Shown piece after piece: positions 700-28,860 of a DNA stretch of 36,154 bases. Under the pieces are notes generated by a model. That model was not told the DNA's origin, made no database searches, and was given only the letters and a program-made list of their open reading frames with translations. The stretch is from Pseudomonadota bacterium. GTDB taxonomy: Bacteria; Myxococcota_A; Bradymonadia; UBA4248. Position numbers and translations under genes: made by a program. The stretch is taken from the NCBI GenBank assembly GCA_017441205.1, contig JAFRYG010000204.1, positions 1-36,154 on the forward strand, written 5' to 3'. Position 1 is the first letter of the stretch. Every line of letters starts with the position of its first letter.

Positions 700-732
700 A
701 AAATAGCCACCCTCAAATAACAGGGCTATTTT
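700..732 (-). terminator. Weak intrinsic terminator after the sigma-factor gene
   Basis: On the minus strand a 9-bp stem is formed by 732-724 and 708-700 (AAAATAGCC pairing with GGCTATTTT). The loop is 15 bases and the 3' arm ends in TTTTG. The stem begins inside the last codons of the sigma gene. The T-run is short and the stem AU-rich, so efficiency is uncertain. Confidence 0.35.
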
Positions 733-1331
733 TCATCCGGCCCGATATCTTCGCAATCGATATAGCTGCGCAGATTGCTTTGAAGTCTGAGACGCGCATA
801 ATGCAGACGGCTCATCACCGTACCGATTTGAATATCCAGAACACTGGCAATTTCTTCGTATGAAAGGCCATCGATTTCGCGCAGCGTAATTATCGTGCGC
901 TGTTTTTCTGGCAAAGCTTCCAAAGCTGCGCTCAGCTTAATTCGCAGTTCAGCACACTCGCATGCTCGCTCGGGATTAATTCCCAGACTGGGAGGCAGAA
1001 CGGCCTCCGGTCTGGAAAAATTCTTTTGATAATCATTATCGAACTCGACCTCGCGAGCCGTTTTTTTGCGGCGATATTTATCGACAGCAAGATTGTAGGC
1101 AATGCGGTATGCCCAGGTAAAAAAACGCGTTCCGGGCTGATACTTGTCGATATTTTTATAAATGCGGACAAAAACTTCCTGGCAGATCTCCAGAGCATCC
1201 TGGCGATTATGAACGACACCGTAGACGACACCAATGATGCGATCCTTGTATCGCCAATAAATCTGCTCAAATGCAGATCTGTCACCCGCCTGAATTTTCA
1301 GGACGAGCTGTTCGTCCGACAATGCATCCAT
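726..1331 (-). CDS. ECF-type RNA polymerase sigma factor
   Basis: This is a 201-residue sigma-70 family protein of ECF architecture. Region 2 holds QEVFVRIYKNIDKY followed by TWAYRIAYNLAVDKYRRKK. A linker leads to region 4, with LPEKQRTIITLREIDGLSYEEIA and a helix-turn-helix ending GTVMSRLHYARLRL. It should redirect RNA polymerase to a small regulon. I chose the ATG at 1331 (MDALSDEQ), which has GGGG about 12 bases upstream. An in-frame ATG at 1370 adds 13 residues but lacks a Shine-Dalgarno. The gene lies 69 bp after the pseudokinase stop, last in a four-gene minus-strand run. No anti-sigma factor of the usual zinc-binding or membrane type is seen next to it, so the kinase-like neighbour or the lipoprotein may be the regulator (inference). 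Confidence 0.93.
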   Translation of the reverse strand: MDALSDEQLVLKIQAGDRSAFEQIYWRYKDRIIGVVYGVVHNRQDALEICQEVFVRIYKNIDKYQPGTRFFTWAYRIAYNLAVDKYRRKKTAREVEFDNDYQKNFSRPEAVLPPSLGINPERACECAELRIKLSAALEALPEKQRTIITLREIDGLSYEEIASVLDIQIGTVMSRLHYARLRLQSNLRSYIDCEDIGPDEK

Positions 1332-1400
1332 GAACCGTAAAAACCCCAAATTAATGCATCGCCGAATCATTACTGATTCGGCGAAAGCAGACCTGGCAGA

Positions 1401-3248
1401 TTAGTACCCAATCGGGAGAGAAACTTTCTTCGAAGTACCGCCAAACTTCCTGAAGTGAACCGATGAGAACGCAGAAACGATACACGAATTCAATTCTCCC
1501 GATGCCGTCGACGAAAGATCACGGACGATACCAGTTGGATGAATCTTAAAGCTCACGACGACATCAATCCGTCGTCCGCCGGCGAACTTGTCATAACAGG
1601 ATCGAATTCGTCTCACCATCGTCGGAGACATGCATTCCTTCTCGATTTCCCAATCGAGCAATGGGCCCAGTTCTTCCCCATCATCGCCGGTAAATACCAG
1701 CGTTTCAATTTCATCGCCTCCCCCAGGACCCTTTTTCGCCCCAGGACGCCGCATGGATGCGTATTTCTTACGATGTTCTTCTTCCCAGGCTTTCAATGCA
1801 GCTTCGAGTTCTGCTTCCGTCGCCTTCGGATCAAAGAAAGCGCGGGCCTTGGATTCATCCACATTAAGTGCGACAGCTTCTTCCTTGGGCCGTTCAAATT
1901 TCTTTTCAAATGCAGGAAGGGCTGAAGCAAAATCAACCGGTACCGGCTCAACAAGATTCCACAAATAGATCAAAGGAATCAGCATCACAGCCAAAACGCC
2001 GATGACAATTCCCAAAACCGTCGTCACACCGAAAGCCTTGGCCCTTGCTTTCTTCTTTTCGGTTGCAGCCTGTTTGACCGCCTGCTTGTGTGCACGAATC
2101 GGAAGATAATCTTCAACTTCCTTCCTGAACTCCGCAATGGTTCCAAGATTCTGGCGTTTCTTCGTTGATGTGTTGAAAATACTTGTCGATTCCGTGATTA
2201 CATCATCATAAAATTTCTGAATCAGTCCTTTATGATCAAACGGTCCAAAATCCATTCCATCTTTCTGATAAATCCAGACTTCGGATTTGACAATTCGGGA
2301 AGATGCCTTAAATCCACCGCTGTCAAAAAGATCTGGTTTGGACGAGGATCCGGAATCGACGACAGGATTTTCAGAACTCACAGACAAAGCCCGAAGATCA
2401 TTTACCCCCACGACGATCGAAGAAAGATCATTGTCTGAGGGAGCATCCATGGCATTCTTCAGAGAATCCTTAAACGTCTGTGCGTTCGGGAAACGATCCC
2501 CTGGTTCGGGCTTTGTTGCCTGAAACAGTGATTCTTTGATCATCGTCGATACGCCGGGAAGCCTTGCAATAAATGCCTCCGGGGAACCGTTGAATTCAGT
2601 CAGCGAAACACCGCTCAGCAATTCAGAAAATAGCAGCGCCAGGGAATAAACATCTGCCGCAGGCTTTGCTGCATTTCGTGCATACCGAATTTCAGGGGCA
2701 CAGAACAAAGATCCAAAATAAGAATCCCTGTCCATATCATCCAGATAGCGCTCGGCAAGACTCGAATAAATATAGTTGGCAATTCTTACACGACCTTCGC
2801 GCGTGACAAAGATCATTTTCGGCGACAAACATCCATAGCAATAACCGGCATTGTTCAACACTTCTATGCCGAGACAGATGTGCGCCAAAAAGCTGTAAGC
2901 AGCCTTTGTACCGAGAATCTGGCCTCGCTCCCGACGCAGTTTAAGATGGGCATCGAGCGACTCTCCATCTATGTACTCCATCAGTACATAGCCCGTCTCA
3001 CCGTCGACGATAAAATCCTTCAGCGTCGCTATGCTTTTATGAGCAATTCCCCTTAGGGATGCACACATCTGACGAATTTCATTTACGCGCTGCTCGTTAC
3101 AGTCAAAGCTCAGCTGTTTTACAAGGAAATTCTCGCGATTGTGCGTATTGCTCATTAAATATGAAACACCAAGCTCGGTTTCACCAATGACTGCTTTGAC
3201 TTCAAGACAATCCGCAACGATATCGCCGACATTATGTTTTAGAATCAT
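1401..3248 (-). CDS. Transmembrane protein-kinase homologue (predicted pseudokinase) with GYF-like and C-terminal AgmX/TonB-C-like domains
   Basis: This 615-residue protein has a Hanks-type kinase fold at about 10-265. The nucleotide-binding lysine is kept (K44 in FLVKQL), as are the APE motif (184-186) and the following ADVYSLALLFSELLSG helix. The HRD motif reads Y138-G139-C140. The catalytic-loop lysine and asparagine are S142 and M145, and DFG is N158-Y159-I160. The glycine loop is also degenerate. It therefore should not transfer phosphate in the normal way. Residues 324-380 resemble a GYF_2 module (GPFDHKGLIQKFYDDVITEST). One membrane helix spans about 408-433, and a charged linker leads to a C-terminal domain at about 530-615. 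That domain has the C...V...F.I...G.V pattern of AgmX/PglI or TonB-C domains and would be periplasmic. The gene starts 13 bp after the lipoprotein stop and precedes the ECF sigma gene. The fold call is firm; inactivity is inferred from the missing residues. Confidence 0.85.
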   Translation of the reverse strand: MILKHNVGDIVADCLEVKAVIGETELGVSYLMSNTHNRENFLVKQLSFDCNEQRVNEIRQMCASLRGIAHKSIATLKDFIVDGETGYVLMEYIDGESLDAHLKLRRERGQILGTKAAYSFLAHICLGIEVLNNAGYCYGCLSPKMIFVTREGRVRIANYIYSSLAERYLDDMDRDSYFGSLFCAPEIRYARNAAKPAADVYSLALLFSELLSGVSLTEFNGSPEAFIARLPGVSTMIKESLFQATKPEPGDRFPNAQTFKDSLKNAMDAPSDNDLSSIVVGVNDLRALSVSSENPVVDSGSSSKPDLFDSGGFKASSRIVKSEVWIYQKDGMDFGPFDHKGLIQKFYDDVITESTSIFNTSTKKRQNLGTIAEFRKEVEDYLPIRAHKQAVKQAATEKKKARAKAFGVTTVLGIVIGVLAVMLIPLIYLWNLVEPVPVDFASALPAFEKKFERPKEEAVALNVDESKARAFFDPKATEAELEAALKAWEEEHRKKYASMRRPGAKKGPGGGDEIETLVFTGDDGEELGPLLDWEIEKECMSPTMVRRIRSCYDKFAGGRRIDVVVSFKIHPTGIVRDLSSTASGELNSCIVSAFSSVHFRKFGGTSKKVSLPIGY

Positions 3249-3261
3249 TATCCACCCACTA

Positions 3262-3723
3262 TCAGTCTAAAGGCAGGTCAATTGCCCACCTCTGAGCATC
3301 GCGATGCATGGCAACATCAATCGTATTGCCATCATGAAGCACAATTTTTACCACGGCATTCCGGTCATTCTCAAATGCCAGCTCGAGTTTTTTGTATTCA
3401 CGAGTCGTCGAAAGCACATGACCGGCACGAATCATATCGCATCCACGCCGCTGCCCGCCTTCAGGCTGCATCGCATTGAATTCCTGCGCTCGGGAATCCA
3501 GGCGCTGACGCGTTTCTGCCGAAAGATACTCCCACATTTCATCGACACCGCGATACTCGGTCGTCTGAAGAAATCCTGCGAGCACATCACAGGGATCGTC
3601 GCGCATCCAGACAGGACCTGATCCACAACCAGCCAAAAAAGACGTCATAAACAGAATACAAAACCACATCCCGGGATGATTCTTTCCCGGAACAAGTGAT
3701 TTTACTTTCCATTCCAACGCCAT
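3262..3723 (-). CDS. Small predicted lipoprotein in the sigma/pseudokinase operon
   Basis: This 153-residue protein has a basic start, a hydrophobic stretch (MWFCILFMTSFLAGC) and a lipobox whose lipidated cysteine would be C33. The mature part contains DPCDVLAGFLQTTEYRGVDEMWEYLSAETRQRLD, then a beta-rich end with KIVLHDGNTIDVAM and RWAIDLPLD. That pattern recalls small NTF2-like (DUF4878-type) lipoproteins, but I cannot confirm a family. I chose the ATG at 3723 because AGGCGG lies 7 bases upstream. An ATG at 3729 sits too close to that site. The gene lies 13 bp from the pseudokinase and is probably co-translated with it. A periplasmic partner for the kinase's C-terminal domain is possible (inference). 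Confidence 0.7.
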   Translation of the reverse strand: MALEWKVKSLVPGKNHPGMWFCILFMTSFLAGCGSGPVWMRDDPCDVLAGFLQTTEYRGVDEMWEYLSAETRQRLDSRAQEFNAMQPEGGQRRGCDMIRAGHVLSTTREYKKLELAFENDRNAVVKIVLHDGNTIDVAMHRDAQRWAIDLPLD

Positions 3724-3808
3724 GTCCATACCGCCTGCTGATGAGTCTGGATCCCCCCGAACTATAAAATATGACACGACGCCCCAAAACCGTCAACGCA
3801 ATTACGCG

Positions 3809-4273
3809 CTACTTTCCGCAAACCAGGCGACGCAGTCCATCTTCAAACAGAACTTCAGCTTTCGTGGAATCCGTCATTTCGACGACGATACCCAATCCGA
3901 ACTTCGGATGCCGAATGACATCCCCCTTCAGGAGCTTCAATCGAATGGAATAGCTGCGAATCGAGTCTGTCTCGACATCCGTCAAACGTTTCCAGGCATT
4001 CGCAAGATTTTCAGATGACGCCTGGTCATCAGCAGTTAACAGGCTCTTAACAACCGGGCCGCCTGTCCCTTCTGATTCACGCAAATGCTCATGGTTACAC
4101 GACGCGCACGCTATTTTGTCGCCCTTTACGATTGCATGCGGCTTAATATCACGGCAAATCGGACACCATTCCTCAATCAAATCAGCTTCGAGCTCACTCT
4201 CCAATGCCGGTTCATCAAAAGAATCGTCATCCATACCACCTTCAAGCTCTCGTTCTTCGTCATCTCGTGCCAT
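3809..4273 (-). CDS. Zinc-ribbon protein with C-terminal CarD/UvrD-tudor-like module
   Basis: This 154-residue acidic protein carries a four-cysteine zinc ribbon (C37-P-I-C40 and C56-A-S-C59). It ends with a module at about 117-154: GDVIRHPKFGLGIVVEM, then KAEVLFEDGLRRLVCGK. The HPKFGxGxV...VxFxDGxRxL pattern is shared with small SH3/tudor-like domains such as the PcrA/UvrD C-terminus and the CarD RNA-polymerase-interacting domain. A nucleic-acid or polymerase contact is plausible but not shown. The ATG at 4273 is preferred, with AGGGAAG a few bases upstream. An alternative TTG lies at 4291. It is the first gene of the minus-strand run ending in the sigma factor. Confidence 0.7.
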   Translation of the reverse strand: MARDDEERELEGGMDDDSFDEPALESELEADLIEEWCPICRDIKPHAIVKGDKIACASCNHEHLRESEGTGGPVVKSLLTADDQASSENLANAWKRLTDVETDSIRSYSIRLKLLKGDVIRHPKFGLGIVVEMTDSTKAEVLFEDGLRRLVCGK

Positions 4274-6314: not shown

Positions 6315-8090
6315 ATGTTGCAGCTTCAGGTTATATATGGAAAAGATGCGGGGAAATGCGTGCGTTTCCACCAAAGCATTGTCCATATTGGCTCTGATCC
6401 GGGAAACGATTTTCAGCTCAATGATGCAGAGAGCAGCCAATACCATGGGGAAATCACCTGCAACCACGAGGCAAATCATTATGCATACCGCGATCTGCAG
6501 AGTGATCACGGAACGCGGGTGAGATCAGCCAATATTGATGTCATGCTGTACAGTCATCAGATGGCGCAGTCCGTTGCCATTGCCGGCGAATGTATGCTGC
6601 ACATCGGGCAGAGTACCCTGCGCTGCACGTATATCCCAAGTCCGGAAAGCATCGTTCCGAATACTGTACAGTGCGTTTCCTCGCTGCCGCTTCACAGTCT
6701 GCCGCCGACCAACGATCCCGATCTGCTTTCATTTTTGCTCGACACCTCGACGACGCTGACGAGCAAAACGACTTATCAGGCGGTGTTGAAGCATCTGGTC
6801 ATCAAACTGGAGCAGCGCATAGAGAAAGCCACCCATCTGGCCATTTGGCGTTATGATTCATGCCGCGATTCCTTTTCGTGTGTGATGGAGCGTTCGCGCA
6901 TCAACCAATCCGCGCCGTCAATTCTGACCGAAGATGACTACCGCAAGGCCATCCGCATGCGAACGGTCAGCCTGTTTCGTTCGGATGATGTGACATTTCC
7001 GGGATGTGCCGTCGTTGCACCGCTCATTTCATCGCAGCACGAGCTCGGTGTACTGACCGTGGACGCATCGGATTCCAATGGTCTGCAAGAATCGGATCTT
7101 GAGATATTATCACGGGTTGCCGTAGTCGCGGCCCACTCACTCGAACGCACTTTCATCAATGCCGATTTGAGTGAAGTTTTTGACGGATTTATTCGCTCGA
7201 TCATCGCGGTAATGGATGCGCGCGATCCGGCATCGGCGGGCCATTCCATGCGAGTTGCGAGATATGCCATGATGACCGCGCAGGCGATACATTCGTCGAC
7301 GCGCAAGGCATTCATAAACATTACATTTTCGAGCAACCATCTGGATGAAATCCGGTTTGCATCCCTGCTGCACGATATCGGCAAGGTCGTTCTGCGAAGG
7401 GAAATTCTGCTCAAAGCTGCCAAACTCACGCAGGATGACCTGAAGCATCTGCTGGAACGAATCGATCTTTTTGCAGCCTGGTTTGCGACGCAATCAGCCG
7501 AAACGATGGGCAGCAGCTACCGAACGCCGCAGCAGTTTGAACACTACCGTGAAATGGTCACGCGCGTTCAACAGGCCCAGGCAAAGGCGACAGAGGACGA
7601 TCGCCAGCTCATTGACGAAATGACCCGGACGTTCATTACCCCCTGTCCTCATCTGCCGCTTCTGACGTCACAGGAAAAGGAATCGCTGCTCATCGAACAT
7701 GGCACGCTCAATGCCGAAGAGCGTCAGGAAATCGAACGACATGTCCTGATTTCATGGCAGTATCTGTCGCAAATTGCGTGGCCGCAGCGATGGAGCAATG
7801 TCCCCATTTTCGTTCTGCAGCATCACGAAAAGCTCAATGGAACCGGATATCCTTACGGCATTTCCGGGGATCAGATCGTTTTGCAGAGCAGAATCATAAC
7901 TGTCTGTGACATTTTTGATGCCCTGACCGGAGGCGACAGATCCTATAAAACGCGCCATTCCTTTGGTGATGCAGCACAGATTCTGCAGGAAGAAGCCCAT
8001 TCCGGAGCACTCGACGCCGATATCGTCGATCTCTTTGTTTCTGAAGTCATTCCGCAAATCAGCGATCCCGAAGGAAGTATCGGCATTTAA
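6315..8090 (+). CDS. FHA-GAF-HD-GYP signalling protein (probable cyclic-di-GMP phosphodiesterase)
   Basis: This is a 591-residue cytoplasmic protein. Residues 1-105 form an FHA domain (HIGSDPGNDFQLNDAESSQYHGEI, then DHGTRV), expected to bind phosphothreonine peptides. Residues about 135-275 look like a GAF sensor domain. The rest is an HD-GYP hydrolase with metal-site residues H310, H353-D354 (HDIGK), H476, H503-H504-E505 and D532, and a GTGYP motif in place of GYP. About 95 extra residues lie between HDIGK and the next conserved histidine. This layout, with a GTLNAEERQEIERHV lead-in, matches a known subfamily. The expected activity is hydrolysis of c-di-GMP or a related cyclic dinucleotide. 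The start lacks a clear Shine-Dalgarno. The FHA domain could link it to Ser/Thr kinase signalling. Confidence 0.88.
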   Translation: MLQLQVIYGKDAGKCVRFHQSIVHIGSDPGNDFQLNDAESSQYHGEITCNHEANHYAYRDLQSDHGTRVRSANIDVMLYSHQMAQSVAIAGECMLHIGQSTLRCTYIPSPESIVPNTVQCVSSLPLHSLPPTNDPDLLSFLLDTSTTLTSKTTYQAVLKHLVIKLEQRIEKATHLAIWRYDSCRDSFSCVMERSRINQSAPSILTEDDYRKAIRMRTVSLFRSDDVTFPGCAVVAPLISSQHELGVLTVDASDSNGLQESDLEILSRVAVVAAHSLERTFINADLSEVFDGFIRSIIAVMDARDPASAGHSMRVARYAMMTAQAIHSSTRKAFINITFSSNHLDEIRFASLLHDIGKVVLRREILLKAAKLTQDDLKHLLERIDLFAAWFATQSAETMGSSYRTPQQFEHYREMVTRVQQAQAKATEDDRQLIDEMTRTFITPCPHLPLLTSQEKESLLIEHGTLNAEERQEIERHVLISWQYLSQIAWPQRWSNVPIFVLQHHEKLNGTGYPYGISGDQIVLQSRIITVCDIFDALTGGDRSYKTRHSFGDAAQILQEEAHSGALDADIVDLFVSEVIPQISDPEGSIGI

Positions 8091-12485: not shown

Positions 12486-12546
12486 TTTGGCGACAGTTCC
12501 CTGAGACGAATTAAGCATTACGAATCACCCCAATAATCATCTATAC

Positions 12547-12566
12547 AGACGTTCCGCGGAACGTCT
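12547..12566. repeat. AGACGTTCC palindrome (family B), copy 1
   Basis: This is a perfect 20-bp palindrome, AGACGTTCC-GC-GGAACGTCT, preceded by TAC and followed by CTCT and a heptamer array. Four related copies occur at 14161, 14207, 15064 and 28828. Confidence 0.85.
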
Positions 12567-12581
12567 CTAACAACAATTCAT

Positions 12582-14181: not shown

Positions 14182-14206
14182 CTGCGAACAACAAATTCTT
14201 TTGTAC

Positions 14207-14226
14207 AGACGTTCCATGGAACGTCT
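14207..14226. repeat. AGACGTTCC palindrome (family B), copy
   Basis: AGACGTTCC-AT-GGAACGTCT is a perfect 20-bp palindrome, 46 bases from the previous copy and 18 bases before the next start codon. Each copy is preceded by GTAC and followed by CTCT. If transcribed, the hairpin would sit in the 5' leader of the 14244 gene. Confidence 0.8.
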
Positions 14227-14243
14227 CTTTCCAACCCATTATC

Positions 14244-14972: not shown

Positions 14973-15063
14973 CGTCCAACGAACATATATATAATGATGT
15001 ATGGTTGTGAACGCCCCTCCGGGGCGCAGCTGATTTTATCATGCATTAATCATTTATACGTAC

Positions 15064-15083
15064 AGACGTTCTGCGGAACGTCT
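15064..15083. repeat. AGACGTTCC palindrome (family B), copy
   Basis: AGACGTTCTGCGGAACGTCT has one mismatch to the perfect palindrome. It is followed by TTCCCCC and a CCCAACG/CCCAACC/AACGACT/AACCATC heptamer run ending at the rimO start codon. A CGCCCCTCCGGGGCG hairpin lies upstream at 15012-15026. Confidence 0.78.
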
Positions 15084-15115
15084 TTCCCCCAACGCCCAAC
15101 CAACGACTAACCATC

Positions 15116-28795: not shown

Positions 28796-28827
28796 TGCGT
28801 AATGCCGAATTGGTAATGATTCAGTAC

Positions 28828-28847
28828 AGACGTTCCAAGGAACGTCT
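28828..28847. repeat. AGACGTTCC palindrome (family B), copy
   Basis: AGACGTTCC-AA-GGAACGTCT is preceded by GTAC and followed by CTCTGACAAC and a GAATTAAGCATT heptamer array, the same order as at 12547-12661. Confidence 0.82.
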
Positions 28848-28860
28848 CTGACAACGATCA

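Follow-up and report, generated by a model that had tools for sequence, protein, structure and literature searches.

Our analysis of one protein encoded in the window (the whole 36,154-nucleotide stretch of DNA that was analysed) points to a family of bacterial transmembrane pseudokinases that runs through a whole class and has a lipoprotein as its constant partner. The lipoprotein and the pseudokinase form the conserved unit of the system throughout the class. Judged from the aligned sequences, the loss of the HRD and DFG motifs is ancestral and conserved, and this is a true pseudokinase family. The family looks undescribed; a literature search on pseudokinases with ECF sigma factors in myxobacteria, and on kinases and sigma factors of Bradymonad- genomes, returned nothing pertinent. 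The explanation that we prefer, and hold with middling confidence, is that the pair is an ancient, envelope-spanning scaffold or sensor that works by binding throughout the class, and that one lineage captured a sigma factor gene into its operon.

The initial annotation placed the pseudokinase in a tight run of four genes. All four genes of the run were confirmed:

3809..4273, minus strand: small zinc-ribbon and UvrD-Tudor-like protein of 160 amino acids, first gene of the run
3262..3723, minus strand: lipoprotein with lipobox LAGC, directly upstream of the pseudokinase gene
1401..3248, minus strand: transmembrane pseudokinase (Pfam Pkinase, 5e-18)
726..1331, minus strand: ECF sigma factor of 201 amino acids from the likely ATG; the open reading frame extends to 1370

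Upstream of the run, an FHA-GAF-HD (HD-GYP-like) protein is encoded on the plus strand (6315-8090), and it is also found in the relative G001.

Orthologues were searched for in 58 genomes, which are the window's own and its relatives, nearly all from the same class. The window's family (f1) comprises eight genomes, and its order comprises nine genomes only, these eight and one of family f2. Full-length pseudokinase orthologues were found in several families. Their identity to the window protein is 50-61% within f1, 39% in f2, ~23-28% in f5 and ~21-29% in f4 and f7. A search of named genomes with the family alignment led to seven MAGs. These relatives of f1 carry the titles Myxococcales bacterium or Proteobacteria bacterium, and several come from ruminant gut samples.

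The earlier reading of the kinase motifs in the window protein was correct. K44 (LVKQL) and APE are kept, YGC stands in place of HRD, NYI in place of DFG, and S/M in place of the K/N of the catalytic loop. The same annotation had left it to related loci to show whether the loss of HRD and DFG is conserved, and it is. None of the 39 aligned orthologues across the class has the catalytic HRD Asp. An Asn replaces the DFG Asp in 32 of the 33 orthologues from f1, f2, f4, f5 and f7. The f3 orthologues have the DFG Asp, but their beta-3 Lys and most of their APE are gone. As a control, 13 other kinases from f1 and three f5 genomes were inspected. HRD and DFG were intact in 12 of them, and the remaining one is again a pseudokinase. 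We give practically no credence to the decay of a single kinase gene, which is ruled out by the occurrence of the same losses in 39 orthologues; no internal stop interrupts the reading frames of the listed orthologues. The residues that keep the kinase fold together, namely APE, the F-helix Asp and the helix-I Arg, are conserved in the pseudokinases of f1, f2, f4, f5 and f7.

Retention of K44 stood for the window protein but not as a trait of its family, because the beta-3 Lys is lost in four of the eight f1 members. Nucleotide binding is therefore unlikely to be essential in f1. The catalytic-loop Asn and the HRD His are lost in all eight. These losses argue against an unusual enzymatic or nucleotide-dependent activity of the pseudokinase, which we regard as very unlikely, although all 25 orthologues from f2, f4, f5 and f7 have the beta-3 Lys and most of them also have the catalytic-loop Asn, so that nucleotide binding is compatible with the sequences there.

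Other pseudokinases were also seen. An f5 genome encodes a second, different pseudokinase with HGNLKPQN (L208:1744-4050). The phylum-level relatives L179-L193 are also devoid of HRD (mostly HG[AT]LRP-like), and several of them have a neighbour gene of the YscJ/FliF lipoprotein type (for L180, Pfam 1.4e-22; L180:2343-4190 and L180:1554-2342). This suggests that some pseudokinases lie in type III-secretion-like gene neighbourhoods.

The lipoprotein gene is the constant neighbour of the pseudokinase gene. A profile search placed it directly upstream at 38 of 41 class loci, on the strand of the kinase gene and no more than tens of bases away from it. Clustering added two more class loci, where the start codons chosen by the ORF caller lie too far upstream. 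Outside the class it was found at one of 16 loci. The lipobox LAGC is present in the window's lipoprotein, and its Cys is invariant in 17 aligned homologues. The AF2 model of the lipoprotein (pLDDT 89.7) is of the alpha-plus-beta type, and a Foldseek search with this model gave no significant match. The best profile match is an NTF2-like PDB entry, 3k7c (E 0.0012), and one f5 homologue matches DUF4878 (E 0.013). The domain of the mature lipoprotein is thus probably NTF2-like, as far as profile similarity can tell.

An AlphaFold2 model of the pseudokinase was built with a 24-sequence alignment. The 1401..3248 product is divided as follows:

residues ~9-267: kinase fold
residues 268-291: conserved flexible linker
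residues ~325-371: GYF_2-like module
inside residues 372-430: membrane helix
residues ~531-615: periplasmic AgmX/PglI-type C-terminal domain

The kinase domain was modelled with pLDDT about 90, and Foldseek matched the model to PknA/PknB-type kinases (E 6e-15). Residues 372-430 form one long helix, and the C-terminal domain has the order helix-strand-strand-helix-strand. The GYF-like module that had been proposed fits the beta-rich module modelled at 325-371, but its Pfam GYF_2 match is weak (E 0.0024) and under the cut-off. The AgmX-type tail could be upheld. The window protein itself scores below threshold (19.7 vs 40 bits), yet all 24 aligned relatives match myxo_SS_tail and 16 of the 24 match the GltJ model (E<=0.01). 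Two cysteines in the periplasmic tail, C551 and C589, are invariant, and the order of kinase fold, GYF-like module, membrane helix and AgmX-type tail is conserved. The linker was modelled at low confidence and ranks among the best-conserved parts of the pseudokinase in f1. Its motif, DAPSDxDLSSIVVGVNDLRAL, lies in a segment in which 17 of 24 positions are invariant in f1 (99th percentile of permutations, 15). The motif is partly present in the f2 relative, where the sigma gene is unlinked, and is not evident in f5. From this pattern of conservation, residues 268-291 are a candidate docking site.

The protein resembles several known systems in part. It shares a kinase fold, a membrane anchor and an extracytoplasmic domain with the receptor kinases PknB and PknA, but its catalytic residues are lost and an AgmX-type tail replaces PASTA. 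With GltJ (AgmX) and GltG (PglI) of the gliding machinery of Myxococcus xanthus it shares a cytoplasmic interaction module joined to an AgmX/PglI-type periplasmic tail. GltG combines a cytosolic FHA domain with a TonB-like motif (PMC3169522), whereas the cytoplasmic part here is a pseudokinase with a GYF-like module. The GltJ equivalog cut-off is 450 bits; the f5 member L044 scored 47.6 bits, and the window protein was not listed for GltJ. We recognised no glt cluster near the pseudokinase. In type VIIb secretion, the membrane pseudokinase YukC/EssB is an interaction hub (PMC9600267). The present protein is likewise a bacterial membrane pseudokinase, but it differs in phylum, in extracytoplasmic domain and in gene context, and its Pfam YukC match (E 0.28) is outside the kinase domain.

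The sigma factor matches two Pfam models (Sigma70_r4_2, 1.4e-17; Sigma70_r2, 6.4e-16) and is the reciprocal best hit of an ECF orthologue found throughout the class. Its region 2.2 reads DALEICQE, and DxxExxQE is found in all eight f1 sigma factors. The motif is DxxDxxQE in those other orthologues of the class for which it was read. A search for a promoter motif shared upstream of the sigma orthologues, as in autoregulation, by enumeration of bipartite words gave nothing above shuffled sequence.

The pairing with an ECF sigma factor invited comparison with the ECF43 group. In that group, region 2.2 is devoid of the acidic DxxD (DAED) motif, and the adjacent kinase activates the sigma factor by phosphorylation (PMC8999054, PMC13147305). 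The locus resembles ECF43-type pairs (PknT-EcfP, PknS-EcfK) in that a membrane protein of the Hanks fold is encoded beside an ECF sigma factor with no adjacent anti-sigma factor. It differs in that the kinase is without catalytic residues and the sigma factor has the acidic motif. The analogy drawn in the initial annotation fails on this retained motif, and we rejected membership of ECF43 because the motif is present and the adjacent kinase is, by sequence, not catalytically competent. With both features together, activation in the manner of ECF43 is very unlikely.

The gene order was then judged by its distribution. Inside f1 it is conserved; with the shared loss of HRD and DFG, this removes two of the grounds on which the initial annotation would have been refuted. 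Lipoprotein, kinase and sigma factor follow each other with short gaps in all eight genomes, which represent three genera, and all four genes occur together in seven. The idea that the sigma pairing defines the system was not borne out, since, of the class loci examined, only those of the eight f1 genomes have the sigma gene next to the kinase gene. The neighbours of the pair in f5 are different, namely thymidine kinase- and hpt-like genes, a DUF4388 protein and a TsaE-like gene. These two observations would suit a reading in which the sigma gene simply landed downstream of the pair and shared expression is the sole link. The order nevertheless persists across genera with kinases that share only about 49-60% identity, and we find co-transcription as the only link unlikely.

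Outside f1, the sigma orthologue is directly followed in 13 of 20 sampled loci by a gene that we call s1, and an exported protein of ~150 amino acids (s2) is often next. The s1 product spans the membrane once, carries one to three zf-HC2-like repeats (Pfam E 0.026-0.09) and is without the zinc-binding HxxxCxxC motif. Its position and its weak similarity to zf-HC2 indicate that s1 is probably the ancestral anti-sigma factor. The versions from f1 and from the rest of the class are homologous (hhalign probability 97, E 1e-10). In the seven other f1 genomes (G001-G007) and in the f2 genome G008, s1 is present but unlinked to the sigma gene. G008 carries the sigma gene, the s1-s2 pair and the lipoprotein-pseudokinase pair on three different contigs. 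The class profile, a single family protein and the family profile all failed to find s1 in the genome from which the window comes (94% complete). This counts against the explanation that we prefer and would be compatible with a replacement of s1 there. The remark that the run has no ordinary anti-sigma factor thus holds for the locus but probably not for the lineage. Because s1 is kept elsewhere in the other f1 genomes, the data neither require nor show that the pseudokinase replaced the anti-sigma factor.

The pseudokinase might itself be a membrane-bound regulator that holds and releases the sigma factor through a conformational change driven by the periplasmic AgmX-type domain and the lipoprotein. 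The tight order with the sigma gene in f1, the separation of this gene from its ancestral anti-sigma-like neighbour, the conserved linker as a candidate docking site and the failure to find s1 in the window's genome all speak for such a regulator. However, s1 is retained in all of the other f1 genomes, the pseudokinase occurs throughout the class with no adjoining sigma gene, and part of the linker motif is present in f2, where the two genes are apart. We rate this role as rather unlikely. A bolder version holds that, in the gut family f1, the dead membrane kinase took control of an ECF sigma factor that occurs throughout the class. The envelope would be sensed by the AgmX-type domain together with the lipoprotein, the linker would sequester and release the sigma factor by binding alone, and the anti-sigma-like protein would have been demoted or lost. 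This version appears to us quite unlikely.

In the preferred explanation, an ancient binding scaffold or sensor with a sigma gene captured in f1, the AgmX-type periplasmic domain, which is TonB-C-like and has the two invariant cysteines, would contact the lipoprotein or another part of the envelope. On the cytoplasmic side, the pseudokinase, the GYF-like module and the linker may form a docking platform for client proteins. This scaffold role is assigned by analogy with GltJ/GltG-like and YukC/EssB-like proteins, whose cytoplasmic modules serve in this way in their machines. In f1, the sigma gene would have moved into the operon of the pair, away from its ancestral partner s1, and the sigma factor and the module would thereby be co-expressed. 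Most likely, s1 would still hold the sigma factor in trans, and the pseudokinase would be at most an additional input. We infer both the binding partners and the direction of control. The families provide a natural before-and-after comparison, in which the same pseudokinase occurs both next to an ECF sigma gene and apart from one, and the same sigma factor both next to an anti-sigma-like protein and apart from one. The question whether dead kinases can control sigma factors by binding thereby becomes testable.

The small protein encoded first in the run is loosely associated with it. Its gene adjoins the run in seven of the eight f1 genomes, and in G006 it is on another contig beside a glmM-like gene. 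It had been described as zinc-ribbon/CarD-like. The zinc-ribbon cysteines are present, but a Pfam CarD match is absent; membership of CarD/CdnL was rejected, as the one match obtained was to PcrA/UvrD Tudor and below threshold (E 0.012).

Repeats were also noted in the window. The intergenic region 146-679, beside the operon end, contains a 37-nt unit in three copies and a 66-nt unit in two. A 35-nt repeat occurs in four dispersed copies (12534-12568, 14194-14228, 15051-15085 and 28815-28849) and contains the palindrome AGACGTTCC..GGAACGTCT.
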